Assembly (NCBI GenBank): GCA_035686305.1
Contig: DASRZP010000013.1
Coordinates: 1-35,942 of the forward strand
Origin: Thermodesulfovibrionales bacterium
GTDB lineage: Bacteria; Nitrospirota; Thermodesulfovibrionia; Thermodesulfovibrionales; UBA9159
Length of the DNA: 35,942 nucleotides
Direction of reading: 5' to 3'
A model generated the notes under the pieces. It did no database searches, was not told the origin of the DNA, and worked only from the letters and a program-made list of their open reading frames with translations. A program made the translations under genes and the position numbers. This document shows, one piece after another, positions 794 to 35,187 of the stretch. Numbering within the stretch: position 1 is the first letter of the stretch; each line of letters starts with the position of its first letter.

Positions 794-2401
794 TCACGCC
801 TGGCGCCAACAGTAAGGGTCCCGCGACGTGAACGGGTCAATGCCATGGCTATAGGCTACAGCGAGGCAACCGCCGCAAACGGGACGGATGGCACAGCCAT
901 CACAGGCACGACAACCCGATCGGTAGCGCTGCGCTATTGATGACTCATAAATGTCAACAAGCCCTTCGCAGGAGATATTACCAATGTTTGAAGGGAACTT
1001 GCGGCATGCGTGAACTTCTCCATCGGGCAGTACGGACAGAAAGTTGAATGCTGCTCCGCACCCGAATCCTGTACACCCTCCGCAGAGACCTGCCTCCTTC
1101 TCGCTGAGCACCAGGTTGAAGAGATTGTCCTTCAGCCCGATGACCGGATTGTTCCCTGCTGCTTTCAGGTATGCCCCAAGAAAGTCTTTATAGGCGTCTG
1201 GGGGGGGAAGACGGAGAGCACTTCCTTCGCCTACCGAGGAAAGGCGGTTGAAGGTGAAAAGGTCTGTCATGTCATGGACGATCTCTGCAAGAGGGATAAC
1301 CTGTTTCATGTTGTCTTCGGTAAGGGTGAGCATCACCATAGAGTAGATATCGAGTTCACGGAGTACCTTGAGAAACTCCATGGTGCGCCTGAAATGGCCT
1401 GAGCCCCGGATGTGGTCATTATGTTCTTCCAGTCCTTCGAGGCTCACCTGAAAAAATACGGGCTTCTGTATGTTGAGCAATGCCTCGATCTTTTCGCGGG
1501 GAGCGGGGTTACCGAGGACCGCCAGCATAAAGCCCCGCTCTGATGCAGCGCGGTAAAGCGTTTCGAAATAATGATACAATAACGGATTTCCCCCTGAGAA
1601 CGAGACTTGGCCTCGGACATGCATCTTATGGCAGAAATCGGAAAGGTCGTCGAGAATTTTGCTACCGAGCTCCGGGGTTAAAGAAGTCCGGTCACTCCGA
1701 TCATAGCAGTGCCTGCAATGCAGATCGCAGGCTTGGGTAATGTGCCATTGGAGTGTAAAGGTCTGGGATGAAAGAAAGTTCCCCTCAAAAGGGCTCTTGT
1801 CATCGAGAATGAAGTCACGGTTGATTCTTGAGAGAGGAGTCAAGATAATCCCCTCCCCCTTTGCTCTTTCTATTATGGTGTCGATTACCTCCACGGGAAT
1901 GTTTCCCTTCGCCGCAGCGTCTTTCGGCGAGATTCCCTCGACAAAGAGCTTGAGAACGAGAAGGTCTTCCTTTAATGCCTCTCGGACATGTAAGCGCAAG
2001 GTTCTTGGATCTTTCCATACCATGACCACCTCGTTCCCCGCAGTGGGGACAAGACGCCGACCATGATCCTTCGCGTTCAGCAACGTCGGAAGGTTCTTCC
2101 ACGGAACCTCTATCAGGGTAATCGTGGGGTTGATGCCGATATTTTCGGCAAGAGGCCCGATATCAGATGATGCTACCTCTGCGAGGACAGACTCCAGACG
2201 GGCGAGATCGGAAAGATAGCCGGGCAGCCCGAGATCACTCGCCCGGAGTCGTATGATTTCAGAGAGTCTTTCAGGCCCCCCAAGCTCATCGCATGAAGAG
2301 ACGATCGCTTTCCAGACTTCTGGATCGAGGACCGAGAAACACGACGGGTATGCCGCTGAGAGATTCTCTTCTCGGGATTGCTTCATCTGACGCTTATGCA
2401 C
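794..2401 (-). CDS. sbtM: radical SAM/SPASM maturase of the selenobiotic (SbtA-type) RiPP system
   Basis: A 535-residue protein. Residues 1-210 form an N-terminal region without a recognised catalytic motif, probably for peptide recognition. The radical SAM core follows with C225-x3-C229-x2-C232 ('ACDLHCRHCYD') binding the 4Fe-4S cluster that cleaves S-adenosylmethionine, and the 'SFSGGNPLL' segment fits the SAM-binding GGE-like motif. The last 120 residues are a cysteine-rich SPASM-like region (CGGC, FGCG, 'SGCRACDGCAIRPVCGGC') for auxiliary clusters. Architecture, length and position directly downstream of two UGA-containing precursor genes match SbtM maturases, predicted to form thio/seleno-oxazole-type modifications in SbtA peptides. 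The start shown is GTG at 2401; ATG at 2386 is an alternative. Neither has a clear Shine-Dalgarno, which fits translational coupling to sbtA 38 nt upstream. The chemistry is inferred from the family. Confidence 0.85.
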   Translation of the reverse strand: MHKRQMKQSREENLSAAYPSCFSVLDPEVWKAIVSSCDELGGPERLSEIIRLRASDLGLPGYLSDLARLESVLAEVASSDIGPLAENIGINPTITLIEVPWKNLPTLLNAKDHGRRLVPTAGNEVVMVWKDPRTLRLHVREALKEDLLVLKLFVEGISPKDAAAKGNIPVEVIDTIIERAKGEGIILTPLSRINRDFILDDKSPFEGNFLSSQTFTLQWHITQACDLHCRHCYDRSDRTSLTPELGSKILDDLSDFCHKMHVRGQVSFSGGNPLLYHYFETLYRAASERGFMLAVLGNPAPREKIEALLNIQKPVFFQVSLEGLEEHNDHIRGSGHFRRTMEFLKVLRELDIYSMVMLTLTEDNMKQVIPLAEIVHDMTDLFTFNRLSSVGEGSALRLPPPDAYKDFLGAYLKAAGNNPVIGLKDNLFNLVLSEKEAGLCGGCTGFGCGAAFNFLSVLPDGEVHACRKFPSNIGNISCEGLVDIYESSIAQRYRSGCRACDGCAIRPVCGGCLAVAYSHGIDPFTSRDPYCWRQA

Positions 2402-2426
2402 TTAGACCAAGAGGTAAATGGAAATC

Positions 2427-2441
2427 AGTGCGCACGGCACT
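2427..2441 (-). promoter_or_regulatory. putative bacterial SECIS hairpin for the second UGA of the downstream sbtA
   Basis: Exactly 16 nt after the UGA at 2458-2460 the minus strand reads AGTGC-CGTGC-GCACT, a 5-bp stem with G at loop position 2. Compared with the upstream copy, the second stem pair is G-C instead of A-T, with both partners changed, while the spacing to the UGA is the same. This is the pattern expected of selected RNA structure. Confidence 0.65.
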
Positions 2442-2730
2442 ATTCCTTTGATCCGCTTCAGCCACTCTTGCCGGGTTGCTGCTCTTGGCCGGCAGATCCC
2501 TTTGCTTTTTCTTTTTCAGTCTGGTCATCCTCCTTCTTGTCCTTTGCATCCTTGTCTTGCTTCGTGCCCTCCGTAATGGTCTTGGCTGGTTTCTTCTCGG
2601 TGTCACCTGCACCGGATGAGCCGCTTCAGGCTGCCCCGGCGAAATCAGGGGTGGAGACAATTGCGATGCCCGACAAGAGACCTGCGATGCCGAATCCAGC
2701 AAGGATTTTCTTCAAACGGTCTTTGTCCAT
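2440..2730 (-). CDS. sbtA: selenobiotic RiPP precursor SbtA, downstream copy, two in-frame UGA (Sec) codons
   Basis: Read with UGA as selenocysteine, the frame from ATG 2728-2730 to TAG 2440-2442 gives 96 residues. The leader starts 'MDKDRLKKILAGFGIAGLLS', a basic then hydrophobic stretch shared with the neighbouring copy. Sec residues would be U35 (codon 2626-2628, context AGAAUSGSSG) and U91 (codon 2458-2460, context GKSGUSGSKE, five residues from the end). Between them lies a Lys/Glu/Asp/Gln-rich linker of about 50 residues. A strong ribosome site (GAGGAGG) sits about 10 nt before the ATG. The next gene is sbtM. Read with the standard code the gene breaks into pieces of 34 and 55 codons, so gene finders drop it. 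That both UGAs fall in the same U-S-G-S motif, and that the other copy shows the same, argues against chance. Sec insertion itself is inferred; selABCD lie outside the window. Confidence 0.85.
2598..2614 (-). promoter_or_regulatory. possible SECIS hairpin for the first UGA of the downstream sbtA
   Basis: Eleven nucleotides after the UGA at 2626-2628 the minus strand forms CGGTG / loop CAGGTGA / CACCG, five perfect pairs. The G is at loop position 3 rather than 1 or 2, so it fits the usual SECIS description less well than the hairpins after the second UGAs. Confidence 0.4.
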
Positions 2731-2788
2731 GGTCTTTCTTCCTCCTCTGAAGAACTTTGTCACAACTGTGGACGATTACCTTTCTCTT

Positions 2789-2803
2789 AATGCCTACGGC
2801 ATT
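2789..2803 (-). promoter_or_regulatory. putative bacterial SECIS hairpin for the second UGA of the upstream sbtA
   Basis: Sixteen nucleotides after the UGA at 2820-2822 the minus strand folds as AATGCC-GTA-GGCATT, a perfect 6-bp stem with a G at the first loop position. Spacing and loop size fall in the range described for bacterial SECIS elements. The natural TAA overlaps the 5' edge of the stem. The equivalent hairpin in the other copy has a compensatory base-pair change. Confidence 0.65.
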
Positions 2804-2990
2804 ACTTCTTTGACCCGCTTCAGCCACTCTGACCCGGCTTCTGCTCAGTCTGCTCCTTTTGGGTGCTCCCGGCGCCCTCTTTCTTAGAGCCTGATCAGCT
2901 CGATGAACAGCCCGGAAGAGTAACAGAGGCACTGAGCAAAGCGGCGATGCTGAAACCTGCAAGAATCCGTCTCACGTCTGCCGGATCCAT
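2802..2990 (-). CDS. sbtA: selenobiotic RiPP precursor SbtA, upstream copy, two in-frame UGA (Sec) codons
   Basis: With UGA as Sec the frame runs from ATG 2988-2990 to TAA 2802-2804 and encodes 62 residues. The leader 'MDPADVRRILAGFSIAALLS' aligns without gaps to the other copy. U32 (codon 2895-2897, context CSSSUSGSKK) and U57 (codon 2820-2822, context QSGUSGSKK) are near repeats of each other and separated by only 24 residues. A lipobox-like 'TLPGC' places Cys28 four residues before the first Sec; the sister copy has no cysteine there. The ribosome site AAAGGAGG lies 7 nt before the ATG. This is the first gene of the cassette, about 70 nt upstream of the second precursor. The fit to the SbtA family (short, positively charged leader, glycine-rich Sec/Cys core, adjacent SbtM) is close. 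Confidence 0.85.
2861..2877 (-). promoter_or_regulatory. possible SECIS hairpin for the first UGA of the upstream sbtA
   Basis: Seventeen nucleotides after the UGA at 2895-2897 the minus strand can form GGG-C-GC / loop CGGGA / GC-A-CCC, a 5-bp GC-rich stem with one C/A mismatch and a G at loop position 2. A weaker competing CTCT/AGAG stem overlaps its 5' side. Confidence 0.4.
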
Positions 2991-3080
2991 CAAGAACCTC
3001 CTTTCTCGATAGTACAGAGCCCTTTCGGTCTCGGTTAAGAACGCCCGGCCAAAGACAAACCCGCCTACCTCTCTACTTGA

Positions 3081-3257: not shown

Positions 3258-4871
3258 TCATACTTCCCTGTAGAAGAGCAGTACGAAACCCAGCAGTATC
3301 AGGCAGGCTGTCCAGAGAAAACCCGGTATAGGGTTCTTGGGTTCAGGGAGCCGCAGGTCAAGCCACCGCCCGACCCCTATGCCGACTGCCAGAAGACCCA
3401 TGGCGTTATGAGAGACCTCGATGAGGAAAGCCGACTTGATCGCAAATACGGTGTGGGAATGGGTCAAAAGCAGTGCGCCACCCGTCAGACACATGATGGG
3501 AAAGGCAAAATGCCGGCGGGTAGGGGTGAGTTCGCCGGACAGAACGCGCCACTCGAAGAGCGCCAGACCCGCAACGAGAAGCGTCGCGACCCTGTGCTGG
3601 AGCACTTCCGGGATGACGAGCGTCTGCCAGAATCCTTCATTGCCAAGGGGCCAACCCTTCGGTTCGCCTAAGAGGATGAGAAAAACTGCCAGGAGGAGGA
3701 AGAAGAGAGGCCAGTGGCGTGCAAAGCGCACCCTTCCAACACGATCGAGCATGGCACAAATACCTGCGACCACTACGATCAGACCCGATACATTATGGTT
3801 AAAGTCACTTTGTATCCTGTCCAAGACACTCGGCAGGGCAAGGGGGTCGAAAGACGAGGAGGCCCTCATGAGCATCTCCTGATGCGGGGGAGGGACAAAT
3901 TGCGGAAACTTGGGCAAGAATACCTGCAGCACCTCGAGAGCTGATGCGCGCTCTGCAAGCACGTCGACTGCAGGCGGCTGCGAAGTGAGAGCCGCGGCAG
4001 CGAGGAGGATGATCATGGCAATCCACATTTCGCCTTCAATAAAGGCGGGAACCAGTTCTGAAATGTTCCTATCGTCTCCTCGCATCCACAAACGTACACT
4101 GAAGAAATTGAGCGAGCCCAAGCATAAGGCTAAGAGAAGGAGAGATGCTTTTGTGACGACCATCGCCCCATACGCCGTGCCGACCAATCCCGTCCAGTCC
4201 CCTACGTAACGGAGGCTAAGATAAAGTGCTGCCGCCGTGAGCGTGCCGATAGAAAGTATCGCTATACGGGAAAAACGTGCGACCATAGCAGGCCAAAGTC
4301 TGATCCCCCCAGGGGAGCTTCGCACAGGTCCTCCCAGCACTGCAAGATGAAGCAGACCTCCTGCCCACACCGAGGCGCTCAACTGGTGGAGAACCGTGAC
4401 TGCCATGAGCGGAGCGACATGATCAAGCTGACCTACCGCATGCACCAGCCAAGCACCACCTATTACAAGGATGACCGAAATGACCGTCATCGCCACCCAG
4501 CCAAAGATCGAAGCAGGTCGTTTGAGAAGCCAAATGGCCACAGTCATCAGGGAGAGGCCCATGGCGGCATGGAGCAAGCCGGCACGTGCAAAATGCGTCG
4601 CGAGAAACTCGTTGAGCGGCCAGCGCCCCATCTCATCGGCCAGGACCCAGGGCTCTATGGTCAGTACGATCACCTGCGCAAGAGCGACGAGGCCGCCGCC
4701 ACAGGCAATAAGGGCAAGGGAAGCCTTCAGTCCCCGCGCGATCTGAGGGTCACCCCTGTCCAACGGTCTGAGGACTGCAAGGCAGAAAAGGACTCCTCCG
4801 ACGGCCGATGCCAGACCGATGAGTACCAGTGATTTCAGAAGAACTTCGAGGAAGCCTGCAAGAAATATCAT
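3258..4871 (-). CDS. copD: CopD-family copper resistance/import membrane protein
   Basis: A 537-residue polytopic membrane protein from ATG 4871 (545 residues if GTG 4895 is used). The first 300 residues carry about eight hydrophobic helices with the layout of the CopD domain, including 'VTVLHQLSASVWAGGLLHL', where conserved His and Trp residues sit in CopD. A loop of about 80 residues, then five or six more helices with His-rich turns ('LLTHSHTVF', 'EVSHNAMGL') complete it. CopD works with periplasmic CopC in copper handling across the inner membrane. ATG 4871 starts 4 nt after the copC stop, and GTG 4895 would overlap copC by 20 nt, so either start implies coupling. Substrate direction (import or tolerance) cannot be decided from sequence. 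Confidence 0.8.
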   Translation of the reverse strand: MIFLAGFLEVLLKSLVLIGLASAVGGVLFCLAVLRPLDRGDPQIARGLKASLALIACGGGLVALAQVIVLTIEPWVLADEMGRWPLNEFLATHFARAGLLHAAMGLSLMTVAIWLLKRPASIFGWVAMTVISVILVIGGAWLVHAVGQLDHVAPLMAVTVLHQLSASVWAGGLLHLAVLGGPVRSSPGGIRLWPAMVARFSRIAILSIGTLTAAALYLSLRYVGDWTGLVGTAYGAMVVTKASLLLLALCLGSLNFFSVRLWMRGDDRNISELVPAFIEGEMWIAMIILLAAAALTSQPPAVDVLAERASALEVLQVFLPKFPQFVPPPHQEMLMRASSSFDPLALPSVLDRIQSDFNHNVSGLIVVVAGICAMLDRVGRVRFARHWPLFFLLLAVFLILLGEPKGWPLGNEGFWQTLVIPEVLQHRVATLLVAGLALFEWRVLSGELTPTRRHFAFPIMCLTGGALLLTHSHTVFAIKSAFLIEVSHNAMGLLAVGIGVGRWLDLRLPEPKNPIPGFLWTACLILLGFVLLFYREV

Positions 4872-4875
4872 AAAC

Positions 4876-5277
4876 TCATGGTGTGCCAACAACACGGAAG
4901 CGGAGAACTCCCGAGGTGGCGTGACCGTCTGTTGAAAGAATCTTATAACGGAGGATATAGTTGTCCGGTTCGAGATCGGGTAGTTGAATCACAAGACGCT
5001 CGGGAGCTTCACTGCCGTATTTCTTTGTTTGTTCTGGTAGCCGGATAATGCGGCCATTGCCCGTCGTGAGGCTAAATCTGGCAAGGGACTTCTCAATTTT
5101 TTCATTAAAGCGGAGCGCCACTTCTCTTGGAGCGCTCGTAAGGACTTCTCCATCCTTTGGGGAAGATTCAATCACCAGTGCGTGCGCATAGGCAAACCCG
5201 GTATCCGACCAAAGAGTCAGTAAGACGATAACCATTTGCCAGAGAACCTTGATAGTCATGGCACAGCCCGTTGACAT
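4876..5277 (-). CDS. copC: CopC-domain periplasmic copper-binding protein
   Basis: A 133-residue protein with a signal peptide (hydrophobic 'VLWQMVIVLLTLWS', cleavage probably at AYA before HALV). The mature protein begins with His, as in CopC, where the amino-terminal His is a copper ligand. It then has 'SSPKDGEVL', 'VALRFNEKIE' and a final 'STDGHATSGVLRFRV' block holding the second conserved histidine. The length of about 105 mature residues is typical. ATG at 5277 is chosen because GGGGAG lies 6 nt upstream; GTG at 5283 is in frame but has no such site. It forms a two-gene unit with copD. Confidence 0.85.
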   Translation of the reverse strand: MSTGCAMTIKVLWQMVIVLLTLWSDTGFAYAHALVIESSPKDGEVLTSAPREVALRFNEKIEKSLARFSLTTGNGRIIRLPEQTKKYGSEAPERLVIQLPDLEPDNYILRYKILSTDGHATSGVLRFRVVGTP

Positions 5278-5424
5278 GTTCACTCCCCAACGAAGATATG
5301 AAGAAGACCATTTTCAGATTTCACTTGCATTATAGCGTGCCTGAATATTCATTGCAAATAGAGAGGTGAATACTGAGAAAATTAGCGGCAGACACCTAAT
5401 CCGTGAAATATCGATAACGAAAGC

Positions 5425-14013: not shown

Positions 14014-15321
14014 ATGAAAAAAGAACGGGTTATCATCATGGGTGCGGGGGGAAGGGATTTCCATAATTTCAATTCCTTTTTCCGGGACAAGGAGTCATAT
14101 GAGGTGGTGGCCTTTACCGCTGCACAGATCCCCTTCATCGAAAACAGGACCTATCCTCATGAACTCGCGGGAGCACGTTATCCGAGGGGCATCCCCATTT
14201 ATCCGGAAGAAATCCTCGATACCCTTATCAGGGAACATGGGGCAACAACAGCCGTCTTTTCATACAGCGATGTCTCCTACGATGAAGTCATGCATCGGGC
14301 ATCGAGGGCACTCTCTCGTGGTGCTGACTTTCTCCTCCTCAGTCCTGAAAAGACGATGCTCGAATCAAAGGTGCCGGTCATCTCTGTCTGCGCAGTGAGG
14401 ACCGGCTGCGGCAAGTCTGTCATCACAAAGAAGCTCGCAGGCCTCTTCAAGGAAAAGGGGATCAACGTCTCCGTGCTGCGACATCCCATGGCCTACTGCG
14501 ATTTTGTCCCGACAAAAAAGTTCTCTGCAAGAGAGGATATCGACCGGCGGACCTGCACCATCGAAGAGAGGGAAGAGTTTGAGCCTCTCGTCGAGAAGGG
14601 TATCACCGTGTACGCCGGCATTGACTACAGAAGGGTCCTTGATGAGGCAGAAAAAGACTCCCGGGTCATCATATGGGACGGCGGGAACAATGACGTTCCT
14701 TTCATATCTCCTGACTTTGAGATCGTGCTCCTCGATGCATTGAGGCCGGGCCATGAAAGGCTCTTTTATCCCGGCGAGGTAAACCTCAGAAGGGGTAACC
14801 TCCTCATCATAACAAAAGTGAATGAAGCAAAGAAGGTTGATCTTGAACAGATACGAAGCGCTGTCATGAAGGAAAATCCAGATGCCGGAGTCCTTGAAGC
14901 GCCGTCGGTCTTTACCCTCAGTGACTACCGTCTGGTACAGAATAGAGAGGCCCTTGTTATTGAGGACGGGCCGACCATCACCCACGGAGGCATGCCTTAT
15001 GGAGCGGGAGTATCGTCATCAAGAGAATGGGTATCTGGGTTTATTGATCCCCGGCCCTATGCTGTCGGTTCGATCAGAGAGACCTATGCCAGGTATCCCC
15101 ACATAGGCCCCGTACTCCCTGCAATGGGGTATTCAGAAAGGCAGATAAGGGAGCTTGAAGAGACGATCGCCAGGGTCCCTTCCGCTGTTGTCATCATAGC
15201 GACCCCCGTTGATTTGCGGAGGTTCATGACGATAGAGAAACCGACGGTGAGGGTCTTTTATGATTTTGATATCAATTTGAACGGCGTGGTGGAGTCTTTC
15301 GTCAAAGATCATGCCCTTTAA
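14014..15321 (+). CDS. cyclic 2,3-diphosphoglycerate synthetase-like P-loop NTPase
   Basis: A 435-residue protein. The N-terminal 115 residues begin 'RVIIMGAGGRDFHNFNSFFR', a Rossmann-like half. A P-loop follows at 131-135 in 'SVCAVRTGCGKSVITKK', with 'VIIWDGGNNDVPF' as a later conserved block and 'IVLLDALRPGHE' and 'NLLIITKVNEA' as G-protein-like strands. This matches bacterial homologues annotated as cyclic 2,3-diphosphoglycerate synthetase or GTPase, but true cDPG is an archaeal thermolyte and the bacterial role is not known to me. It overlaps the carbamate kinase gene by 11 nt, so the two are made together. That pairing suggests a function around carbamoyl or acyl phosphate rather than cDPG. 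The ribosome site (AGGCAGGGGAG) lies just before ATG 14014. Confidence 0.75.
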   Translation: MKKERVIIMGAGGRDFHNFNSFFRDKESYEVVAFTAAQIPFIENRTYPHELAGARYPRGIPIYPEEILDTLIREHGATTAVFSYSDVSYDEVMHRASRALSRGADFLLLSPEKTMLESKVPVISVCAVRTGCGKSVITKKLAGLFKEKGINVSVLRHPMAYCDFVPTKKFSAREDIDRRTCTIEEREEFEPLVEKGITVYAGIDYRRVLDEAEKDSRVIIWDGGNNDVPFISPDFEIVLLDALRPGHERLFYPGEVNLRRGNLLIITKVNEAKKVDLEQIRSAVMKENPDAGVLEAPSVFTLSDYRLVQNREALVIEDGPTITHGGMPYGAGVSSSREWVSGFIDPRPYAVGSIRETYARYPHIGPVLPAMGYSERQIRELEETIARVPSAVVIIATPVDLRRFMTIEKPTVRVFYDFDINLNGVVESFVKDHAL

Positions 15322-26100: not shown

Positions 26101-26250
26101 CGTATCACCACATGAAACAAACCGGATCGGCTCATGGCGAGAACACTCGTCCGGCAGAGTCCCTCTTCCCTTTGCACCATTTTTTGAGTGATTTAGTATA
26201 ATTTATCCAGCACATTAATCTCAAAGCATACGAAAACAGTGGTTTACCCT

Positions 26251-27438
26251 ATGCAACTCTTTCTCTTCTTTTTGCGATGGACCTTCTTGATTCCGACCAT
26301 CGTGGGATCTCTTTACGTGATATTGTGCCTTTTCGCGGTATGGCGTTTTCGTGCTCCTTCAGCATATTGCTTTCAGGACGTTCTCCGGTGGCCTCCCGTC
26401 ACCATCCTGAAGCCCGTATGCGGCCCGGAGAAAGGTCTCAAGGAGAACCTCCGGAGCGCTTGTTTACAGGATTACCCCGAGTTCCAGGTCGTCTTCTCGG
26501 TTCAGGATCCCGCTGACCCCGCAATCCCCCTTCTCAGAGAAATTCATGAAGAGTTCGGACCTGACAGGGTGTCAGTGGCTGTTGAGAATGTTCTGGCAGG
26601 CCCCAACGGTAAAATCAATAATTTGCTCGGAGCTCTGCGCCATGCCAGGTATGACGTCCTCGTGATCAGTGACAGCGATGTGCGCCTGAGATCCGACTAT
26701 TTGAAGGCTGTCGTCGCCCCTCTGGCAGACCCGGGAGTGGGATTTGCGTGCACACTTTACAGGGCTACCTCAGCAGACCGGTGGTTCGAACGGATGGAGT
26801 TGTTGACCATGAATGCCGATTTCATACCCGGCGTGGTCTTTGCCTATCTGAGTGGAGCTTCACGGTTTTGTCTGGGATGTTCTGTGGCTTTGCGGCGCCA
26901 ATCCCTGAAAGAGATGGGAGGTCTGGAAAGCCTCGCAAATTATCTGGCCGAGGATTATGAAATGGGAAGACGCCTTTGGGTTTCTGGAAAGAGGATGGTC
27001 CTTGTTCCCTATCTTGTGGATATTGTGGTCGACCTCAAGAACCCTTCCCAGTGGTGGAATCATCAGGTCTGTTGGGACCAAAAAACGCGCTCGGCTCATG
27101 CCGCAGGTTTTTTAGCAAGCATCTTGACCCGTTCTGTTCCTTTTGCTCTCCTCCTTGCCCTGTCACGTATGGGAGATAGCCTGGGAATGACGATCCTGAC
27201 CTGTGTCCTCGGACTTCGCCTGTCAGCGGCGGCAGGGATATTGGGATTGGGACTGCGGGACCGAGAGGGTCTGAAGAGTCTTGCGCTTCTCCCTCTGAGG
27301 GATCTCGCCGCCATGGTCTCGTGGGTTCTCGCATTCATTAAAAAGACGGTGATCTGGAGGGGCTCGGAATTCGTGCTCACCCGGAATGGCCGTCTCCTGT
27401 TCCCCTCTTTCCGAAATCACGGGGAACACAGGGACTGA
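26251..27438 (+). CDS. hpnI: hopanoid glycosyltransferase HpnI (GlcNAc transfer to bacteriohopanetetrol)
   Basis: A 395-residue membrane-anchored family 2 glycosyltransferase of the ceramide glucosyltransferase type. An N-terminal helix ('LIPTIVGSLYVILCLFAVW') is followed by the catalytic domain: 'VTILKPVCGPEKGLKENL', 'QVVFSVQDPADPAIPLL', the metal-binding 'VISDSDVRLRSDYL', and 'LAEDYEMGRRLW' as the acceptor-side acidic motif. Three or four C-terminal helices close the protein. HpnI attaches N-acetylglucosamine to bacteriohopanetetrol and HpnK later deacetylates it. The usual RW of the last motif (family HQLRW) is HQVCW here. ATG 26251 is used; GTG 26239 is in frame. Neither has a good ribosome site. 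Confidence 0.82.
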   Translation: MQLFLFFLRWTFLIPTIVGSLYVILCLFAVWRFRAPSAYCFQDVLRWPPVTILKPVCGPEKGLKENLRSACLQDYPEFQVVFSVQDPADPAIPLLREIHEEFGPDRVSVAVENVLAGPNGKINNLLGALRHARYDVLVISDSDVRLRSDYLKAVVAPLADPGVGFACTLYRATSADRWFERMELLTMNADFIPGVVFAYLSGASRFCLGCSVALRRQSLKEMGGLESLANYLAEDYEMGRRLWVSGKRMVLVPYLVDIVVDLKNPSQWWNHQVCWDQKTRSAHAAGFLASILTRSVPFALLLALSRMGDSLGMTILTCVLGLRLSAAAGILGLGLRDREGLKSLALLPLRDLAAMVSWVLAFIKKTVIWRGSEFVLTRNGRLLFPSFRNHGEHRD

Positions 27439-27445
27439 GAGAGCG

Positions 27446-27814
27446 TTAAGGAAGAGCGGTCAGTGCAACGCCCAGACAGACAAAGAGGATACCGACCCAA
27501 CGCTCTAAGGTGACCGTTTCCTTCAGGATGAATTTCGCTCCGAAGGTGCCCGTGACGTAGACAAGCGACTTCGCAGGAAAAACGAGACTCAGGTCAGCCC
27601 AGGCGAGGACGACGAGAAAGGAGCAGAACGTGATGGCCATGCAAAGAATGGCGCAGAGGAAGTTCCTGTTGCCGATCACTCTTCGCCAAGTGGCAAGAAG
27701 GGCCGTAGGGCGGATAGTGGATATCTCCCCCACCTGTTTCATTCCCCTTGTGAGGAAGACATCTCCCGCGGAATCGGCCAAGACGATCACGGCGATGAGC
27801 ATTGCCGTCTTCAT
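27446..27814 (-). CDS. half-size EamA/SMR-like membrane transporter, second of a pair
   Basis: A 122-residue protein with four hydrophobic helices ('AMLIAVIVLADSAGDVFLT', 'FLCAILCMAITFCSFLVVL', 'LSLVFPAKSLVYVTGTFGA' and 'RWVGILFVCLGVALTAL'). This is half of the ten-helix EamA fold and similar to SMR-type or ArnE/ArnF-like subunits. The frame is open further upstream, but ATG 27814 overlaps the stop of the preceding gene by 4 nt (ATGA) and begins a proper membrane protein. Paired half-size genes of this kind often form heterodimers. The position inside the hopanoid region suggests export or flipping of a lipid or sugar-lipid, which is inference. It ends 7 nt from convergent hpnI. Confidence 0.75.
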   Translation of the reverse strand: MKTAMLIAVIVLADSAGDVFLTRGMKQVGEISTIRPTALLATWRRVIGNRNFLCAILCMAITFCSFLVVLAWADLSLVFPAKSLVYVTGTFGAKFILKETVTLERWVGILFVCLGVALTALP

Positions 27815-28221
27815 CGGCCGTCGCTCCGCAGGGCCTCTTCCTCCGCTCGCCGGGTCTTTTGCCTCTCCGAGCGCAAAACCAGGACGACACCAAGAGAGAT
27901 GAACAGAACCCCTGTCCATCGTGCGAGAGAGATTGCTTCTCTTAAGAAATGGCGGGCGAAGATCGCATTCACCATGACTTCTGCGGACACAGCGGGCACA
28001 ACAAAGCTCAAATCGGCCCATGAAAGGGCGGACGCAAAAAGGATAAAGGAAGCAGCCAGGAGCGCAGTTCCGAGCCAAACAGCGGGATTTTCAGCGACGT
28101 GAATAAGAAGAGGCAGCCAATCCTTGCTGATCCCTATTTCCTTCATACTCATACTCAGGAAGACGTTTCCCGTCGCCTGGGCGAGTATGGCCGGAATCAA
28201 TACAACAATGGTCTTCCTCAC
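27811..28221 (-). CDS. half-size EamA/SMR-like membrane transporter, first of a pair
   Basis: A 136-residue protein with four helices: 'IVVLIPAILAQATGNVFLS', 'AVWLGTALLAASFILFASA', 'LSFVVPAVSAEVMVNAIFA' and 'RWTGVLFISLGVVLVL'. It ends in a basic and acidic cytoplasmic tail. It aligns helix by helix with its downstream neighbour (WADLSFVVPA / WADLSLVFPA; RWTGVLFISLGV / RWVGILFVCLGV), so the pair arose by duplication. The GTG start at 28221 overlaps by GTGA the stop of the hpnJ stub, meaning that it is translated by coupling from a broken gene. Confidence 0.75.
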   Translation of the reverse strand: MRKTIVVLIPAILAQATGNVFLSMSMKEIGISKDWLPLLIHVAENPAVWLGTALLAASFILFASALSWADLSFVVPAVSAEVMVNAIFARHFLREAISLARWTGVLFISLGVVLVLRSERQKTRRAEEEALRSDGR

Positions 28222-28352
28222 CGGACTTCTCCGGGCCGCGAGAGCCAGGTCAAATACCAGAAGGAATGGATCTCTCGCCGTGCCGGATAACGCGAGCCGG
28301 CTCCGCCATCGAATTTCTCAAAAGAGGGAGGATTCAGGAGTAATGTTTTCAT
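28218..28352 (-). pseudogene. hpnJ: hpnJ stub: first 44 codons of the hopanoid radical SAM protein HpnJ
   Basis: From ATG 28352 the minus strand encodes 'MKTLLLNPPSFEKFDGGAGS' followed by 'RYPARREIHSFWYLTW', then LSRPGEVR and TGA. The first 37 or so residues are the N terminus typical of HpnJ (LNPPSF, FDGGAGSRY, ARREI, SFWYPTWL). Full HpnJ has about 470 residues with a B12-like and a radical SAM domain, all missing here. The break falls right at the start of the EamA gene, as from a deletion. GGTGA lies upstream, so the stub may still be translated and drive the downstream GTG. HpnJ is needed for the cyclitol ether head group of hopanoids. Confidence 0.75.
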
Positions 28353-28437
28353 CTGTTACTTTCACCGTTCCTTTTACAGGGTAACTGCATAATTCCCTGT
28401 TTGTCAATTTCCCGCGTGAACAGACACGTGGCATTCC

Positions 28438-29331
28438 TCACCAGCCACTGCCTTTGATCAACGAGTTTCCTGGCCGGCCTTCAGGAATTGCAGCCAGGGG
28501 AAAGTCTGCGAGATGGGTCCTCAGGGCATCATCTTCATCCGGCAAGGTACGCTTCTGTTTCAGCATGGATGAGAGCAGAAACAAGGGGAGCGTAACAATG
28601 AATACTCCTGTCCAAGCCAAGTGATGGTCACGAATGGCAAAGGCCATGCAGAGGTTGAATGCGAGCACGCCCAAATAGAGACCCGGACCTATGAGGTATC
28701 TCCAGGGATATCGGTAACCCGCATAATCCCTAATCCTCGAGCTGTCCAGATATGCATCAATGAGTTGGAGTGCGTAGATCATCAGGAATCCCACGATGAG
28801 CCATCCCGCAAAGTTCGATATGGGCACCCCGAAATAGGCGCCCTTCTGAGGGTACCCGTATATCTGGCCGAGAAACCATTCCTTTCCCCGCAACGCCAGG
28901 GGATCTATGATGATATCGAGATAGAGGAAGAAGACCGCCCCAAGAATCCGTGTGGAGAGCGACTTCCTGAGCATCTTCGTTTCCAGCAGATAAAGAGGCC
29001 CTCTTGAAAGGATAGGCGAAGTCACTGCCAGTGCCATCGCGTAGCTTGCATACGCCAGAAACACATAGCTCATAGAATCCATAAAGGGTATCCCGAGCAC
29101 CCACAGCTCTCTGCCTCTTGTTTGTTCGATGTAGTAATAGTATCCATAGGGAATGCCATTATGGATGGAAGAGTATTCAGATAGCCATGCGATGATGTAC
29201 CCTACGACGATGAAAAGTGCGGCCCTCTTGATTCCCAAATGCAATGAACAACCGAAAAAATACGCGAGGAAAAAAACAAAGACATAGGGCCTGAGAAGAA
29301 TGGTACTGAGGAGGAGAGAGAGCGGCTCCAT
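28438..29331 (-). CDS. CruF-like carotenoid/isoprenoid hydratase family (DUF422) membrane protein
   Basis: A 297-residue membrane protein with seven or eight helices. It carries the DUF422/CruF signatures: 'YLDIIIDPLALRGKEWFLG' (acidic pair next to a helix), 'YGYPQKGAYFGVPISNFAGW' (G-x-YFG-x-P-x-NF-x-GW) and an early 'WLSEYSSIHNGIPYGYYYY'. CruF enzymes add water to a terminal isoprenoid double bond of carotenoids. No carotenoid gene is near; this gene sits within the hopanoid operon directly after hpnH, ATGA-overlapping it at 29331. ATG 29331 is taken because the upstream extension overlaps hpnH out of frame and is not hydrophobic. Action on a hopanoid or polyprenyl side chain is possible but unproven. 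Confidence 0.78.
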   Translation of the reverse strand: MEPLSLLLSTILLRPYVFVFFLAYFFGCSLHLGIKRAALFIVVGYIIAWLSEYSSIHNGIPYGYYYYIEQTRGRELWVLGIPFMDSMSYVFLAYASYAMALAVTSPILSRGPLYLLETKMLRKSLSTRILGAVFFLYLDIIIDPLALRGKEWFLGQIYGYPQKGAYFGVPISNFAGWLIVGFLMIYALQLIDAYLDSSRIRDYAGYRYPWRYLIGPGLYLGVLAFNLCMAFAIRDHHLAWTGVFIVTLPLFLLSSMLKQKRTLPDEDDALRTHLADFPLAAIPEGRPGNSLIKGSGW

Positions 29332-30335
29332 CAGCTCTCTCTCAGATTCCAGATGACCAGCCTGAGGAGGTCTTTGGGATTTGAAAAGGCGTTCCTCATG
29401 ACCGTGGCTTCGTAACCGCTGTGGACCATGCAATTCCTGCACCTCGGGTCGCTGTCCGTACCGTACTTTTCCCACGGCGTTTTCTCCATCATCGCTCCGA
29501 AGGAAGGGTAGTAGGCATCCGTAACAAGATAGCAGGGGGATTTCCATCCAAGGGCGTTTCGCGTGGGATTACCCCACGGCGTGCACCGCATCTCTCTCTT
29601 TCCCTTCAGGAAATCCATGTACATGGGGGAGCTTATCAGGGGGAATCTGTCGAAGCAGCGAGCCGTCCCGCTGAACTTCTTCCTGATCTCACCCCTGTCG
29701 AGAAAGATACCGTCTTCTACACTTTCATAACTGAACGCGGGGGAGACGAGTATCCCGTCCACGCCGGCGCTCTTCAGTAACTCAAACAACCTTTCGAGTT
29801 CCTCCATGTCCGAGTTCCTGTACACGGAGGTATTGGTGCTCACCCTAAAACCCCTCTGCTTTGCCTTTCCTATGGTTTCGATGGTCTTTCTGAACGTCCC
29901 GGCTCTGTTCGTGACGCGGTCATGGGTCTCCTCCATCCCGTCAAGGTGAAAGTTCAGGGTAAGCCGGGAAGCGGGCTTAAATTCCTCGATAAAGGTTTCC
30001 GTGAGAAGTCCGTTCGTACAGAGATAGACATGTCTCTTCATTCCGAGAAGCGCCGCCACAAGAGGCTTTAACTCCGTATACAAAAGAGGCTCCCCGCCCG
30101 TGACTGTCACCACAGGGGCTCCTGACTCCACTGCAGCATCGATGCACTGATCGAGGGACAGATCATCTGTCTGTTCCCTGGCATGGAGCCGAATCCTGTC
30201 GCAGCCCGCACACGAGAGGTTGCACCGGTGCGTCGGCTCCAGCATAAGCACAAGCGGGAATGTCCTCTTACCCGTGAGGGCATTCTTAACAAAATACGAT
30301 GTTAACGATGTATAGAGACTAAGCGGAAAACGCAT
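29331..30335 (-). CDS. hpnH: adenosylhopane synthase, radical SAM protein HpnH
   Basis: A 334-residue radical SAM enzyme. It opens with the family signature 'MRFPLSLYTSLTSYFVKN' and 'FPLVLMLEPTHRCNLSCAGC', with cluster cysteines C38, C42 and C45. 'VVTVTGGEPLLY' is the SAM-binding GGEP motif, and 'TLNFHLDGMEETHDRV' and 'CTPWGNPTRNALGWKSPCYL' are conserved downstream blocks. 'DPRCRNCMVHSGYEATVM' is the C-terminal cysteine region. HpnH adds a 5'-deoxyadenosyl radical to diploptene to form adenosylhopane, the first side-chain extension step. AGGAGG is 14 nt from the ATG, rather far, but the N terminus matches the family exactly. Within the operon it is between DUF116 and the CruF-like gene. Confidence 0.93.
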   Translation of the reverse strand: MRFPLSLYTSLTSYFVKNALTGKRTFPLVLMLEPTHRCNLSCAGCDRIRLHAREQTDDLSLDQCIDAAVESGAPVVTVTGGEPLLYTELKPLVAALLGMKRHVYLCTNGLLTETFIEEFKPASRLTLNFHLDGMEETHDRVTNRAGTFRKTIETIGKAKQRGFRVSTNTSVYRNSDMEELERLFELLKSAGVDGILVSPAFSYESVEDGIFLDRGEIRKKFSGTARCFDRFPLISSPMYMDFLKGKREMRCTPWGNPTRNALGWKSPCYLVTDAYYPSFGAMMEKTPWEKYGTDSDPRCRNCMVHSGYEATVMRNAFSNPKDLLRLVIWNLRES

Positions 30336-30355
30336 GGGTGGCGAAAGAACCTCCT

Positions 30356-31171
30356 TTAGGATACCTTCTTTTTCTTTCTTTCCGTAATGAACTTCAGTGT
30401 CTCTTCCAGCTCGACAAGAGAGACTTCGGTATTCTTGCAGGGGCCTTCAGGCCTCCTGTTCGGTATGGCAAGGACGGGTATCTTTTCTGCTACGTCCCTT
30501 ATCCCGCTCACGAGGTCCCGCTCGCAGGCAAAGGCGAGGATACACGTCGGCCGATACTGTTTGATCGCTTCCCTCGCCTCTTCTCCCCCACCGGCAGTAA
30601 GAACCTTGAAGCCTTCTTCGCCGGTCCTTTCGACGATCTGCCTCCTTGCTTCCCTCTTCAGACATCTCGGCAGCAGGATAAGGAGCCGTTCAAGGTCCAG
30701 CCTCTCTCCACGGCTCTTCGTCATGAAATTATGCACCTTGATAAAGGAGTTCCCCACTCTGTCCCTGCTGATCCCGAACTTTCTTCCAAGCCATATCGTT
30801 TTGGGAAGAAGGGTAAGAAGGAGTTTCTCTCTCCATTTGTGGGGGAGCAGGGATTTTCTGAATTTCACAAGAGATACCCCCTCCGCGATCATAAGGACGG
30901 AGAAAAGCCCTGCGAAACAGGCTACGATCCACTCTAGAATGATCGCAAGAGAGGGATCAAGCTGTTCGATTCTCGGTCTGATCAGGTACCAGGCCACCTG
31001 CACGACGAGGACCGCGAGAAGCATAATGCCGGCAGCCAGAAAGAAGAAGGTGGTCATCTTCTCGTTTATTTCCTGGTCCCGGGGATCCGCCTCACCCTTC
31101 CAGTCCGCCCACTCGTCACCGAGTTTTCGATCTTTCCGCTGAGCATCAGCCTCTGCTTCTTTTTCAGCCAT
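30356..31171 (-). CDS. DUF116-domain membrane protein
   Basis: A 271-residue protein. Residues 1-35 are charged, two membrane helices follow ('TTFFFLAAGIMLLAVLVVQV' and 'LEWIVACFAGLFSVLMIAEG'), and the C-terminal 150 residues form the DUF116 domain: 'RLLILLPRCLKREARRQIV', 'ILAFACERDLVSGI', and 'PNRRPEGPCKNTEVS'. The conserved cysteines (in LPRCL, ACERD and GPCKN) may bind a metal or cluster. It sits between hpnA and hpnH with gaps of about 20 nt, so it is translated as part of the hopanoid operon. The function of DUF116 is unknown to me. Confidence 0.8.
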   Translation of the reverse strand: MAEKEAEADAQRKDRKLGDEWADWKGEADPRDQEINEKMTTFFFLAAGIMLLAVLVVQVAWYLIRPRIEQLDPSLAIILEWIVACFAGLFSVLMIAEGVSLVKFRKSLLPHKWREKLLLTLLPKTIWLGRKFGISRDRVGNSFIKVHNFMTKSRGERLDLERLLILLPRCLKREARRQIVERTGEEGFKVLTAGGGEEAREAIKQYRPTCILAFACERDLVSGIRDVAEKIPVLAIPNRRPEGPCKNTEVSLVELEETLKFITERKKKKVS

Positions 31172-31189
31172 GCCGATTCTCCAGTTTGC

Positions 31190-32179
31190 TCATCTCTTTA
31201 TGTAGTCATTTGTCTCGAACCAATCGATCGCCCTCGCCATGGCTCCTTCAACGGAGTTCTGAGGCATATTCAATTCTCCCACCGCCTTTGAGCAGTCGAA
31301 AAACATATACTTTCGTGCCATCTTCACACCCGTTAAGGGTACCCTGGGGTGCCGGAGAGTCAATCGTGAAATCGCTTCGTCAGCATAGGCTGCCATCAAT
31401 ACCGGCAGATATGGAAGTCGCACCTTCGGCGGTTTCCGCCCGGTCATCCGGGCAAGAGTTCCAAAAAACTCCCGGAGAGTAAGGTTCGCGTTTCCCAGGA
31501 TATATCTTTCACCCGTCTTTCCCTTCAGCGAAGCGAGCCAATGACCGATAGCGACGTCCTCCACATCGACAAAATTGAGCCCTGTGTCAACATATGCGGG
31601 AATCTTCCCGTTAAGGAAATCTACGATTATCCTGCCGGTGGGTGTCGGCTTTCTGTCCATGGGGCCGATGGGGGTCGAGGGGTTTACGATCACCGCGGGC
31701 AGACCTCGTTCAATGAAAGCGCACACCTCTCTCTCCGCGAGAAATTTCGATCTCTTGTAGTGCCCAACCATCTCCCTTAAGCCGGCGGATGTCTCTTCGT
31801 GCGAGGGTTTCCCTTTTGAGCTTGCGGAGAGTGTCCCCACCGTGCTCGTGTAGACAACTCTCTCCACGCCCATTCTCAAAGCGGCTTCCATCACATTCCT
31901 TGTCCCACCGAGATTGATCGCGTACATTGTCTTAGGATCAGGAACCCAGAGACGGTAATCGGCAGCGACGTGATAAAGCTGGCTGCACCCCTTGAGTGAA
32001 CGGCAGATTGAGTCAAAATCTCTGACATCGCCCCTGATCAACTCCGCGTCGAGGGATGTGAGGACAGACGAATCACTTCCTTCCCGCACGAGCGCAACTA
32101 CATGGATGCCTCTCTCGCGCAATACTTTGGCCACATGAAATCCGACAAACCCCGTGGCGCCTGTGACAAGGGCTCTCAC
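31190..32179 (-). CDS. hpnA: hopanoid-associated sugar epimerase / NAD(P)-dependent reductase HpnA
   Basis: A 329-residue extended short-chain dehydrogenase. The cofactor motif 'VTGATGFVGFHVAKVL' starts at residue 5 and the active-site pair is Y141 and K145 (HYKRSKFLAE), with 'YTSTVGTLSAS' providing the catalytic serine or threonine. Dihydroflavonol-reductase-like enzymes of this type are found in hopanoid clusters as HpnA; the exact substrate is not settled. The GTG start at 32179 overlaps the cyclase stop by 4 nt (GTGA), strongly supporting coupling. The next gene, DUF116, begins 18 nt downstream. Confidence 0.88.
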   Translation of the reverse strand: MRALVTGATGFVGFHVAKVLRERGIHVVALVREGSDSSVLTSLDAELIRGDVRDFDSICRSLKGCSQLYHVAADYRLWVPDPKTMYAINLGGTRNVMEAALRMGVERVVYTSTVGTLSASSKGKPSHEETSAGLREMVGHYKRSKFLAEREVCAFIERGLPAVIVNPSTPIGPMDRKPTPTGRIIVDFLNGKIPAYVDTGLNFVDVEDVAIGHWLASLKGKTGERYILGNANLTLREFFGTLARMTGRKPPKVRLPYLPVLMAAYADEAISRLTLRHPRVPLTGVKMARKYMFFDCSKAVGELNMPQNSVEGAMARAIDWFETNDYIKR

Positions 32180-34194
32180 CGGTGTTTCCCGTTTCCCTCG
32201 GCCGTCGAGAGAAACTTGCCGAGGGCCATAAGGGGAAAACAGTTTCTGTAATTATGGTAATTTATTGCGAAATACTTCGGGAAACCCGTTCCGGTAAACT
32301 CAGGCTCGTCCCACGTTCCGTCGGCATTCTGGCTCTTGACAAGGTAGGAGATTCCCCGCCTCACTGCGTCGCCGTTACCCTCACCGGCTGCCATGAGCGC
32401 CATGATCGCCCACGCCGTCTGGGAGGGTGTAGTTTTTCCGCAGCTTTTCAATGCCATGTTTTCGTAGGACTCGCAGCATTCTCCCCATCCACCGTCATCG
32501 CGTTGTATGCTCTTTAACCAATTGACCGCTCTTCTGACGTAAGGCTTCTTCATGTCTTCCCCGATCGACCTGAGCCCTGTGATCACGGACCATGTGCCGT
32601 TAATGTAATTGACCGCCCATCTGCTCCACCACGAGCCGTCTTCCTCCTGCGTCTTCATCAAGAACGCGATGGCCCTCCGGACGGCCTCATGGGACAGGGG
32701 ATATCCAAGCAGTCCAAGAAGTTCGAGGGTCCTTCCCGTGAGATCAGGTGAACTTGGATCGATCATCGCCTCGAGGTCTCCGAAGGGAAGCTTGTTCAGT
32801 ATCTTCATGTTGTTATCGGCGTCAAAGGCTCCCCATCCGCCGTCCTTTCCCTGCATCCCGAGTATCCACTCAACCCCCCTCCCGAGATTGTCCGGGTCCA
32901 CGAATTCCATATCAGAATACCTGTGGAGAAGCATCAGGATCACCGCTGTGTCGTCGACGTCAGGATACCAGTTGTTTTCGAACTCAAAAGCCCAACCACC
33001 AGGTGCAAGGCGCGGTCTCTTCACACTCCAGTCACCTGCCCTGAAAATCTGCCTGGAAACCAGCCACCTGCACGCCATGACGAGGGAAGGATGTTCCTTG
33101 TCCATTCCCGAGTAAAGCAAGGCGAGTGAGGTGAGGGCGGTATCCCATACAGGAGAGACACAGGCCTGAAGGACAAGTTCCTCTTCGGTCTCGATGGTGA
33201 ACCTTTCGAGTGCTTCGAGACCCTTTCTTACAGACTCGGATGTCAGGTCGTGGCCCAGAGCGACAAGGGCCAGCACCGAATTCACCATCGCAGGCTGTAT
33301 CCCTCCCCAGTCCCCTCCCGGCTCCTGGTGCCTGAGTATCCACTGTTCCGTCTGTCTCATCGCCCGTTTCCTGAGAGGTCTCAGGGGAAGTCTTTCCATA
33401 ATTTTTGCTACGCTGTCGAGGACAACGAAGAACTGGCTCCATGACAAAACAGACATCTTTTTCGTTGTGAGGGGGGGTCTCCGGGATGGGTCTTTGTAAA
33501 GCTCACGGATCCCTGCACTCTTGTGCACCGGTCTTACCGGTTTGAGATCGACGATTATGGAAAGCGGCACGATGGTGGACCTCGCCCAGCTCGATAAATT
33601 GTATATATTGATGGGGAACCAGTGGGGAAGAAGGTTTATCTCCACAGGGATCGAAGGGATCGCCTTCCAGTCGAATTCTCCGAAGAGGGCGAGGAATATC
33701 TTGGTAAATACCCGTGAAGCTTCGACGCCTCCCTTTCTGAGGATGAACGCCCTTGCCCGCCGAAGAGGTTCATCATCGGCAGAATACCCTGCAAGTTTAA
33801 GGGCGAAGTATGCCTCGATTGTTGTGCTGAGATCCCCGTCGCCTCCCCAGTGGATCGACCACGTCCCGTCGTGCTTCTGGAGCCGGAGTATATGGCGAGC
33901 CATTTTCGCGTCCCTCTTTTCATCCCGTAATCCCAGGAAATGAAAAAGCATAAGGTATTCCGAGGTAATCGTCACATTTGATTCGAGCTCGTACCACCAA
34001 TATCCTTCCTCGTACTGTTCCTGAACATAGTACGACCGGGTTTTCTCTACCGCCTGGCGAACGCTGTCTACCAGACATGGGGATTCCGGGATGGCGAAGG
34101 ATTCCATTGGTTCCGTCGGGACACCAGGCGTCTTACCTCTGAAAGGCAGCCTGAAATATCCGCCATTTCCCTTTCTCAGTAATTTAACGAGCAT
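32176..34194 (-). CDS. shc: squalene-hopene cyclase
   Basis: A terpene cyclase of about 672 residues from ATG 34194. The frame is open to a TTG at 34293 (705 residues), and ATG 34107 is a third option. Protonation of squalene is done by the DxDD motif, here 'NWYPDVDDTAVILMLL'. Several QW repeats stabilise the alpha/alpha barrels, such as 'QGKDGGWGAFDADNN', 'QRDDGGWGECCESY', 'QNADGTWDEPEFTGTGFP' and 'EPGGDWGGIQPAMVNS'. The length is that of bacterial cyclases (630-720). It makes hopene and diplopterol at the cytoplasmic membrane, the entry point of all hopanoid steps encoded here. The extra N-terminal residues of the long form are hydrophobic and cysteine-rich and do not look like family sequence. 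Confidence 0.95.
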   Translation of the reverse strand: MLVKLLRKGNGGYFRLPFRGKTPGVPTEPMESFAIPESPCLVDSVRQAVEKTRSYYVQEQYEEGYWWYELESNVTITSEYLMLFHFLGLRDEKRDAKMARHILRLQKHDGTWSIHWGGDGDLSTTIEAYFALKLAGYSADDEPLRRARAFILRKGGVEASRVFTKIFLALFGEFDWKAIPSIPVEINLLPHWFPINIYNLSSWARSTIVPLSIIVDLKPVRPVHKSAGIRELYKDPSRRPPLTTKKMSVLSWSQFFVVLDSVAKIMERLPLRPLRKRAMRQTEQWILRHQEPGGDWGGIQPAMVNSVLALVALGHDLTSESVRKGLEALERFTIETEEELVLQACVSPVWDTALTSLALLYSGMDKEHPSLVMACRWLVSRQIFRAGDWSVKRPRLAPGGWAFEFENNWYPDVDDTAVILMLLHRYSDMEFVDPDNLGRGVEWILGMQGKDGGWGAFDADNNMKILNKLPFGDLEAMIDPSSPDLTGRTLELLGLLGYPLSHEAVRRAIAFLMKTQEEDGSWWSRWAVNYINGTWSVITGLRSIGEDMKKPYVRRAVNWLKSIQRDDGGWGECCESYENMALKSCGKTTPSQTAWAIMALMAAGEGNGDAVRRGISYLVKSQNADGTWDEPEFTGTGFPKYFAINYHNYRNCFPLMALGKFLSTAEGNGKHR

Positions 34195-34311
34195 ATTAAA
34201 GAAGTAGCAGAATCTCCTATTTTTGTCAAGGCAAAGGTTCTTGAAAAGGAAGCATAAGGCGTGGAACTGCAGCCTTCCGGAAAGAATTGTCAAGGCTCTT
34301 CCACCTCAGAG

Positions 34312-35187
34312 CTAAGAACCGATGACGCAGTCAGAAAGTCTCCGGTAATCCGTCAGTATGTAACCGAGGGACGCCAGCGTGCGGCGCACCTCGTCAGAGG
34401 TAAGGGCGTCGAGCTCCCGTTTGCCTGACTCTGTTGCCGTGTCAGGATGAAAGAATATCTCATTGAGCGTCCCGCCGGCGTTCTCTAAAAGAGACAGCAG
34501 GTGCTTCTGGTCAAGATTCCCTGTACACGAATTGCCATATACATAGTGTGCGGTGCGCAACCCGTACTTTCTCGCCAAATGCGTGTCGTATATCCCGAGC
34601 ATTCGAAAGGTTGCCCATTCAGCATAGGGCATGGCTCCGCGTTCGGTGGGAGTGAGATCAATGACCGCAGACAACGGTTCCTTCGGGACCCGGATCCAGG
34701 TCACCCCCCTCTGTGACGCCTCACGGCAGGCCACCTCAAAGATCAGGGGATGCAGATGGAGATGGTGATGTCCGTCAATATGGCTAGGCCGGATTCCTGC
34801 CTTTTCGATGCAATTAAACTGTGCCTTTATCTCGGCTTCGATCTGGGCAAGAAGCTCGCGACGCCCCTTCCAGTAACGTATCCCGGCAAGAGCCGGACTT
34901 TGCTCCAGCCAGCCGTCCTTATCCACAAGACCTGGTATTTGGGATGGAGGAAGGACGGCCCTGCCATCACATAGTGTTAGATGAAGCCCCACCGAGAGAC
35001 GACTGCGTCTCCGAGCCATCTCGATGGCCTCCTCAAATGCCTCTCCTCCTGTCATAAGACTGGCTGATGTGAGGATCCCTCTGTCATGGGCCTCGGCAAC
35101 GGCCTGATTTACTGACGCGGAGGAGCCAAGGTCATCTGCCACGATAACGAGATATCGCGAATTGTTTTGCAAACTCCCCCGTGTCAT
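34312..35187 (-). CDS. hpnK: hopanoid deacetylase HpnK (YdjC/ChbG-like)
   Basis: A 291-residue carbohydrate deacetylase. The metal-binding aspartates are in 'LVIVADDLGSSASVNQAV', the histidines in 'VGLHLTLCDGRAV' and 'SHIDGHHHLHLHPLIFEVA', and 'EIFFHPDTATE' near the end holds the last conserved His. In hopanoid producers HpnK removes acetate from N-acetylglucosaminyl bacteriohopanetetrol made by HpnI, giving the free glucosamine. The ATG at 35187 overlaps the TGA of a short upstream reading frame. It is 117 nt from the chosen cyclase start (18 nt from the TTG alternative). Confidence 0.88.
   Translation of the reverse strand: MTRGSLQNNSRYLVIVADDLGSSASVNQAVAEAHDRGILTSASLMTGGEAFEEAIEMARRRSRLSVGLHLTLCDGRAVLPPSQIPGLVDKDGWLEQSPALAGIRYWKGRRELLAQIEAEIKAQFNCIEKAGIRPSHIDGHHHLHLHPLIFEVACREASQRGVTWIRVPKEPLSAVIDLTPTERGAMPYAEWATFRMLGIYDTHLARKYGLRTAHYVYGNSCTGNLDQKHLLSLLENAGGTLNEIFFHPDTATESGKRELDALTSDEVRRTLASLGYILTDYRRLSDCVIGS

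Follow-up and report, generated by a model that had tools for sequence, protein, structure and literature searches.

A predicted SbtA–SbtM thio(seleno)oxazole locus with two tandem precursor genes, each with two in-frame UGA codons

We find that a 35,942-nt stretch of DNA from a Thermodesulfovibrionales bacterium (contig DASRZP010000013.1 of assembly GCA_035686305.1; hereafter the window) very probably carries an SbtA–SbtM locus with two precursor genes, in which four in-frame UGA codons would be decoded as selenocysteine (Sec) and both encoded peptides would be substrates of the radical SAM maturase SbtM. We strongly infer that SelB and tRNA-Sec insert Sec at the four UGAs, with a hairpin to assist at every one of them, its loop some 16–26 nt after the UGA. 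SbtM would bind the conserved leader of SbtA and turn the Sec of the motif S-[GSA]-U-[SG]-G into selenooxazoles with the loss of four hydrogens each, as seen in vitro for another SbtM. The leader may then act in export, an intermediate-strength part of the proposal that would leave SbtA-1 as a membrane-anchored lipopeptide and SbtA-2 as a soluble peptide.

Two short precursor genes and an SbtM gene

The two precursor genes lie on the minus strand, where ordinary annotation truncates SbtA genes at the first UGA. With TGA read as U, positions 2990..2802 encode SbtA-1 (P0002; 62 aa, MDPADVRRILAGFSIAALLSASVTLPGCSSSUSGSKKEGAGSTQKEQTEQKPGQSGUSGSKK, two in-frame UGAs, TAA stop), and positions 2730..2440 encode SbtA-2 (P0001; 96 aa, MDKDRLKKILAGFGIAGLLSGIAIVSTPDFAGAAUSGSSGAGDTEKKPAKTITEGTKQDKDAKDKKEDDQTEKEKAKGSAGQEQQPGKSGUSGSKE, two in-frame UGAs, TAG stop). 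Strong Shine-Dalgarno sequences precede both ATG codons (AAAGGAGG at 2997..3004 for SbtA-1, AGAGGAGG at 2741..2748 for SbtA-2, both on the minus strand). A small residue comes before each of the four UGAs, and S-G-S comes after it: Sec32 (2895..2897, SSS-U-SGS) and Sec57 (2820..2822, QSG-U-SGS) of SbtA-1, and Sec35 (2626..2628, GAA-U-SGS) and Sec91 (2458..2460, KSG-U-SGS) of SbtA-2, all on the minus strand. The S-[GSA]-U-[SG]-G core is found at all four sites, with Sec35 reading A-A-U, so that A stands at -2. The frames, their matching leaders, the ribosome sites and the UGA contexts are all as a preliminary description of this DNA had given them.

The SbtA-1 leader ends in LPGC, with a lipobox-like Cys28, and the SbtA-2 leader has no Cys and carries an AGA|A signal-peptidase-I-like site just before its first UGA. 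Against TIGR04081, the NCBIfam model of the SbtA leader, SbtA-2 scores 44.9 bits, over the cut-off of 30.5, and SbtA-1 scores 29.0 bits (E 6.6e-7), which is 1.5 bits under the cut-off; a leader profile trained on the family finds SbtA-1 at an E of about 4e-8. The existence of this model tempers the earlier remark that such genes are hidden from gene finders, which holds insofar as callers would stop at the UGA. Besides the two in the window, no SbtA copy was found in the same genome, and scanning for frames with the UGA motif that the leader profile had overlooked gave no convincing extra precursor. An Rfam search of the region returned a chance snoRNA match only, and a plasmid search gave no match.

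The SbtM gene (794..2401, minus strand, 535 aa) starts 39 bases past the stop of SbtA-2, directly after the two frames as the preliminary description had it. Its product is assigned as a thio(seleno)oxazole radical SAM/SPASM maturase from NCBIfam TIGR04082 (700 bits, cut-off 350, profile 2-515 of 516), from the Pfam domains Radical_SAM (PF04055) and SPASM (PF13186), and from its predicted fold. The radical SAM motif CxxxCxxC has the invariant C225, C229 and C232, and the SPASM-region cysteines lie between C443 and C531. The best fold matches of the AlphaFold model (mean pLDDT 84) are the leader-dependent RiPP maturases SuiB, CteB and SkfB, and in our reading of the model residues 95-183 appear as three strands followed by three helices, the order expected of a RiPP recognition element. 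The SbtM for which there are in vitro data is reportedly that of Geobacter lovleyi. As related in the ACS Catalysis review PMC11002830, peptides with Cys or Sec lost four hydrogens when modified by SbtM in vitro, and NMR identified the product from Cys as a thiooxazole (Lewis et al. 2021, Biochemistry 60:3347). On that account, the preliminary description named the right kind of chemistry, thio/selenooxazoles, and was too cautious in calling the products of SbtA/SbtM systems predicted.

The window holds other genes of note. Upstream of the SbtA pair, at 3258-5283, there are CopD-like and CopC-like copper genes, which were not seen to be conserved beside other SbtM genes. Positions 26239-35187 hold a hopanoid cluster with HpnI, HpnH, HpnA, squalene-hopene cyclase and HpnK, as well as a DUF116 gene and one that resembles carotenoid-synthesis genes. 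At 14014-15321, beside a carbamate kinase, there is a 435-aa P-loop protein that matches no Pfam or NCBIfam family above cut-off and that we take to be, perhaps, a cyclic 2,3-diphosphoglycerate synthetase-like GTPase.

UGA codons across the SbtA family

Of 396 genomes sampled from the phylum, 27 have an SbtM over the TIGR04082 cut-off. Scanning GTDB species genomes added 80 loci, most of them from Thermodesulfobacteriota ('Deltaproteobacteria') and Nitrospirota; the resulting survey has 107 SbtM loci, with some species present in both sets. Using a leader profile blind to what comes after the leader, we found SbtA at 93 of the 107 loci (88 distinct precursors), which together with the TIGR04081 and TIGR04082 scores bears out the identification of the precursors as SbtA and of SbtM as their partner. 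The first in-frame stop past the leader is TGA in 86 of the 88, and the recurrence of the same architecture at 93 loci with TGA as the first stop is far beyond chance. UGAs per precursor number 0 in 2, 1 in 6, 2 in 32, 3 in 33, 4 in 12 and 5 in 3 precursors (n=88), some of the higher counts being inflated in that ...GUSU frames (e.g. L052, L055) probably end at the last TGA as a real stop and long read-through tails add false UGAs in L030, L077 and L102. Several predicted Sec per peptide is the rule for SbtA and not an oddity, and the earlier suggestion that two in one peptide are unusual is contradicted by these counts, as it is by the two Sec given for this family in PMC13188914.

Over the family the UGA context is strong, with S at -2, G, S or A at -1, S or G at +1 and G at +2. 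UGA sites are conserved as UGA or Cys, the pattern for which the preliminary description had proposed to look: two precursors have Cys at all motifs (L048, L074) and three have Cys and UGA mixed (L042, L045, L021). The precursors of L052, L055, L075, L085, L086, L114 and L017 end in ...SGU-x-UGA, with a Sec UGA and, one codon further on, another UGA that seems to be the true stop; this would make these genes a natural test of context-dependent UGA decoding.

The 48 nt past the UGA fold more stably than shuffles at 225 sites (mean z -1.41), compared with -0.26 for leader segments and -0.29 for motif Cys codons. The pairing profile locates a stem locked at nt 17-22 with nt 28-33 (U of UGA = 0). 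In a non-redundant set (n=136) this register is 56% paired, against 32-43% for slid registers and 40% (sd 1.7%) for swapped arms, and the helix covaries, each of its positions showing several kinds of pair. A helix of 5 bp in this register follows 77% of internal UGAs (30% with swapped arms); the corresponding figures are 92% (41%) for C-terminal UGAs and 24% (15%) for Cys codons.

The window has a candidate SECIS hairpin for each UGA, all on the minus strand: 2861..2877 for UGA 2897 (GGGCGC-CGGGA-GCACCC, which contains a single mismatch, ranks as the weakest and is not above shuffles), 2788..2804 for UGA 2822 (TAATGCC-GTA-GGCATTA, 7 bp, overlapping the TAA stop, its loop beginning 22 nt after the UGA), 2598..2614 for UGA 2628 (CGGTG-CAGGTGA-CACCG) and 2426..2442 for UGA 2460 (TAGTGC-CGTGC-GCACTG, which also reads as terminator-like). 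Between the hairpins of the two C-terminal UGAs (2788-2804 and 2426-2442) the base pairs differ and the pairing is kept. Three of the four are regular and one is imperfect, and none stands much above shuffles individually (best z -1.75, for 2788..2804), so the argument for SECIS elements rests on the family.

The genome of the window (97.7% complete) encodes tRNA-Sec (70.6 bits), SelA (609.1 bits), SelB (378.8 bits) and SelD (360.2 bits), the full set that the preliminary description had listed for checking. Its SelD gene (L041, C57:7793-8716) has an in-frame TGA at the active-site motif, in the context TCGUAAKIGP, and so the genome has another probable selenoprotein. SelB was present in 59 of 61 genomes tested, with or without SbtM, and is therefore necessary but not discriminating; as a correlate of SbtM we set it aside as uninformative. 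One genome (G142, locus L012) has a UGA-bearing SbtA and a tRNA-Sec over the cut-off, and in its assembly, which is 99% complete, neither SelA nor SelB was found over the cut-off, owing either to an assembly gap or to real loss.

The reading of UGA as Sec in SbtA, which the preliminary description had put forward, is very well supported by family-wide sequence evidence because TGA is the first stop in 86 of 88 precursors, because homologues have Cys at these sites and because hairpins follow UGA but not Cys; the presence of the sel genes agrees with it. UGA is, to be sure, a normal stop in table 11, and gene callers would end both frames there, leaving leader-only peptides of 31 and 34 aa with the frame downstream a coincidence or a decayed gene. 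We consider this extremely improbable, given that the downstream frame, the motif context and the hairpins are conserved over 88 distinct precursors, that relatives have Cys in place of UGA, and that it is UGA codons and not Cys codons that the hairpins follow. It is also very unlikely, if a little less so, that the hairpins are transcription terminators or attenuators in place of SECIS elements: several do look like terminators by score, on either one of the strands, but internal UGAs that have 16 or more codons after them share the register-locked hairpin at the frequency given above, and Cys sites do not have it.

Leaders, twin precursors and the fate of the product

All 88 precursor leaders combine basic residues with a hydrophobic stretch (mean Kyte-Doolittle maximum 1.88). 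A lipobox-like Cys occurs at residues 23-29 in 53 of the 88, never with a UGA upstream of it (0 cases), and a small-x-A site, loosely defined, in 34, of which the strict form A-x-A is present in 17 precursors. Under the strict lipobox pattern PROSITE PS00013, 44 of the 88 family members pass and the LPGC of SbtA-1 fails (P at -2), which makes it lipobox-like only, so that export is something we infer. By reading, the SbtA-2 leader consists of a basic KDRLKK, a hydrophobic LAGFGIAGLLSGIAIV and AGA|A ahead of the first UGA. Automatic clustering of neighbouring ORFs gave SbtM as the sole general feature. Most of the clusters that come next consist of ORFs antisense to SbtM, and the others are present at about a third of the loci at most, in scattered positions. 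By this clustering of unannotated ORFs, no conserved transporter, exporter or protease stood out near SbtM.

Two precursors occur at nine loci, of which L011 and L070, and L015 and L082, have the same sequences, leaving seven (L011, L015, L016, L020, which is the window, L026, L060 and L087). A twin arrangement, flagged earlier as unusual, is indeed found at a minority of loci, and yet it recurs in these seven distinct ones. In all seven the order is the precursor with the lipobox-like Cys, then the precursor without Cys, then SbtM. Mapped on the SbtM tree, the twin state takes four changes, at least three of them forced by the starred branches. Given that 53 of the 88 precursors belong to the Cys type, a hand calculation puts the chance of the ordered pair at about 0.24 per independent case, or about 0.014 for three independent cases and 0.003 for four; one old duplication followed by losses would also give this pattern. 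Ordered lipobox-like and non-lipobox twin precursors on at least three branches of the SbtM tree may be the new part of this work; we found no statement on ordered twin precursors or on signal-peptide leaders in the literature searched, of which coverage was incomplete. Separately, SbtA lies downstream of SbtM in L022, L064, L076, L089, L094, L109 and L110, in every case with the leader type that lacks Cys.

The signal-peptide-like anatomy of the leaders, together with the lack of a transporter or protease nearby, favours a leader that doubles as a signal peptide, which would also explain the bare two-gene layout. We accordingly lean, by a modest degree, towards the hydrophobic leader being a Sec-pathway signal peptide as well, with SbtA-1 becoming a membrane-anchored lipopeptide and SbtA-2 a soluble exported peptide. 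A reading that we hold somewhat less probable, and quite conceivable, is that Sec and SbtM act as proposed and the leader is a recognition sequence only, the peptides being cytosolic or freed by unlinked general proteases or carriers. The leader is conserved well above what a plain signal peptide needs, and the N-terminal region of SbtM, whose strands and helices in the model follow the order of a RiPP recognition element, can be aligned with SuiB and CteB; against a leader for recognition only stand its signal-peptide anatomy, with a lipobox-like Cys or x-A site ahead of the first modified site, and the absence of a conserved transporter or protease nearby.

As to the role of the product, our best guess is an envelope-bound selenopeptide that handles redox or metals. 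A released, antibiotic-like natural product accords with the general habit of RiPPs and with the label 'selenobacteriocin' in a 2026 review (PMC13188914); we regard it as unlikely, though not negligibly so, as the loci share no recurrent immunity gene, exporter or protease and 53 of the 88 precursors have a lipobox-like Cys. If leaders serve both as RiPP leaders and as signal peptides, some bacteria might pair a lipid-anchored with a soluble selenooxazole peptide, made in that order and modified by one SbtM, as a two-component envelope system and not a classic bacteriocin, a proposal that we offer tentatively and with rather less confidence than that of the exported leader itself.

Comparison with known systems

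Bacterial SECIS elements of the E. coli fdhF type are likewise stem-loops directly 3' of the UGA, with a G on the 5' side of the loop. Compared with these, SbtA genes hold several candidate elements within a short frame, and the last of them extends beyond the true stop. SuiB, CteB and SkfB, the best fold matches to SbtM, align with it over about 400-450 columns at 16-20% identity; unlike SbtM, they make links of other kinds (C-C or thioether) and act without Sec.

Natural peptides with several Sec for one modifying enzyme are rare chemistry. With several Sec as the apparent rule for SbtA, a SECIS-like hairpin of its own for most UGAs and secretory-looking leaders, the survey makes the location and role of the products directly testable. 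The kind is already known and two Sec per precursor are on record, because PMC11002830 describes the former and PMC13188914, a review of the prokaryotic selenoproteome, lists 'Selenobacteriocin' (TIGR04081, SGUG, 2 Sec). The locus therefore belongs to the known SbtA–SbtM thio(seleno)oxazole kind of RiPP and is not a new kind. It shares with the SbtA/SbtM system (TIGR04081/TIGR04082) the same maturase and leader families, the UGA in S-G-U-S-G and a precursor that adjoins the maturase, and with the 'Selenobacteriocin' entry the motif and the two Sec per precursor. It differs from them in having two such genes in tandem, with four UGAs per locus (multiple UGAs being common to the family), the first precursor with a lipobox-like Cys and the second without.
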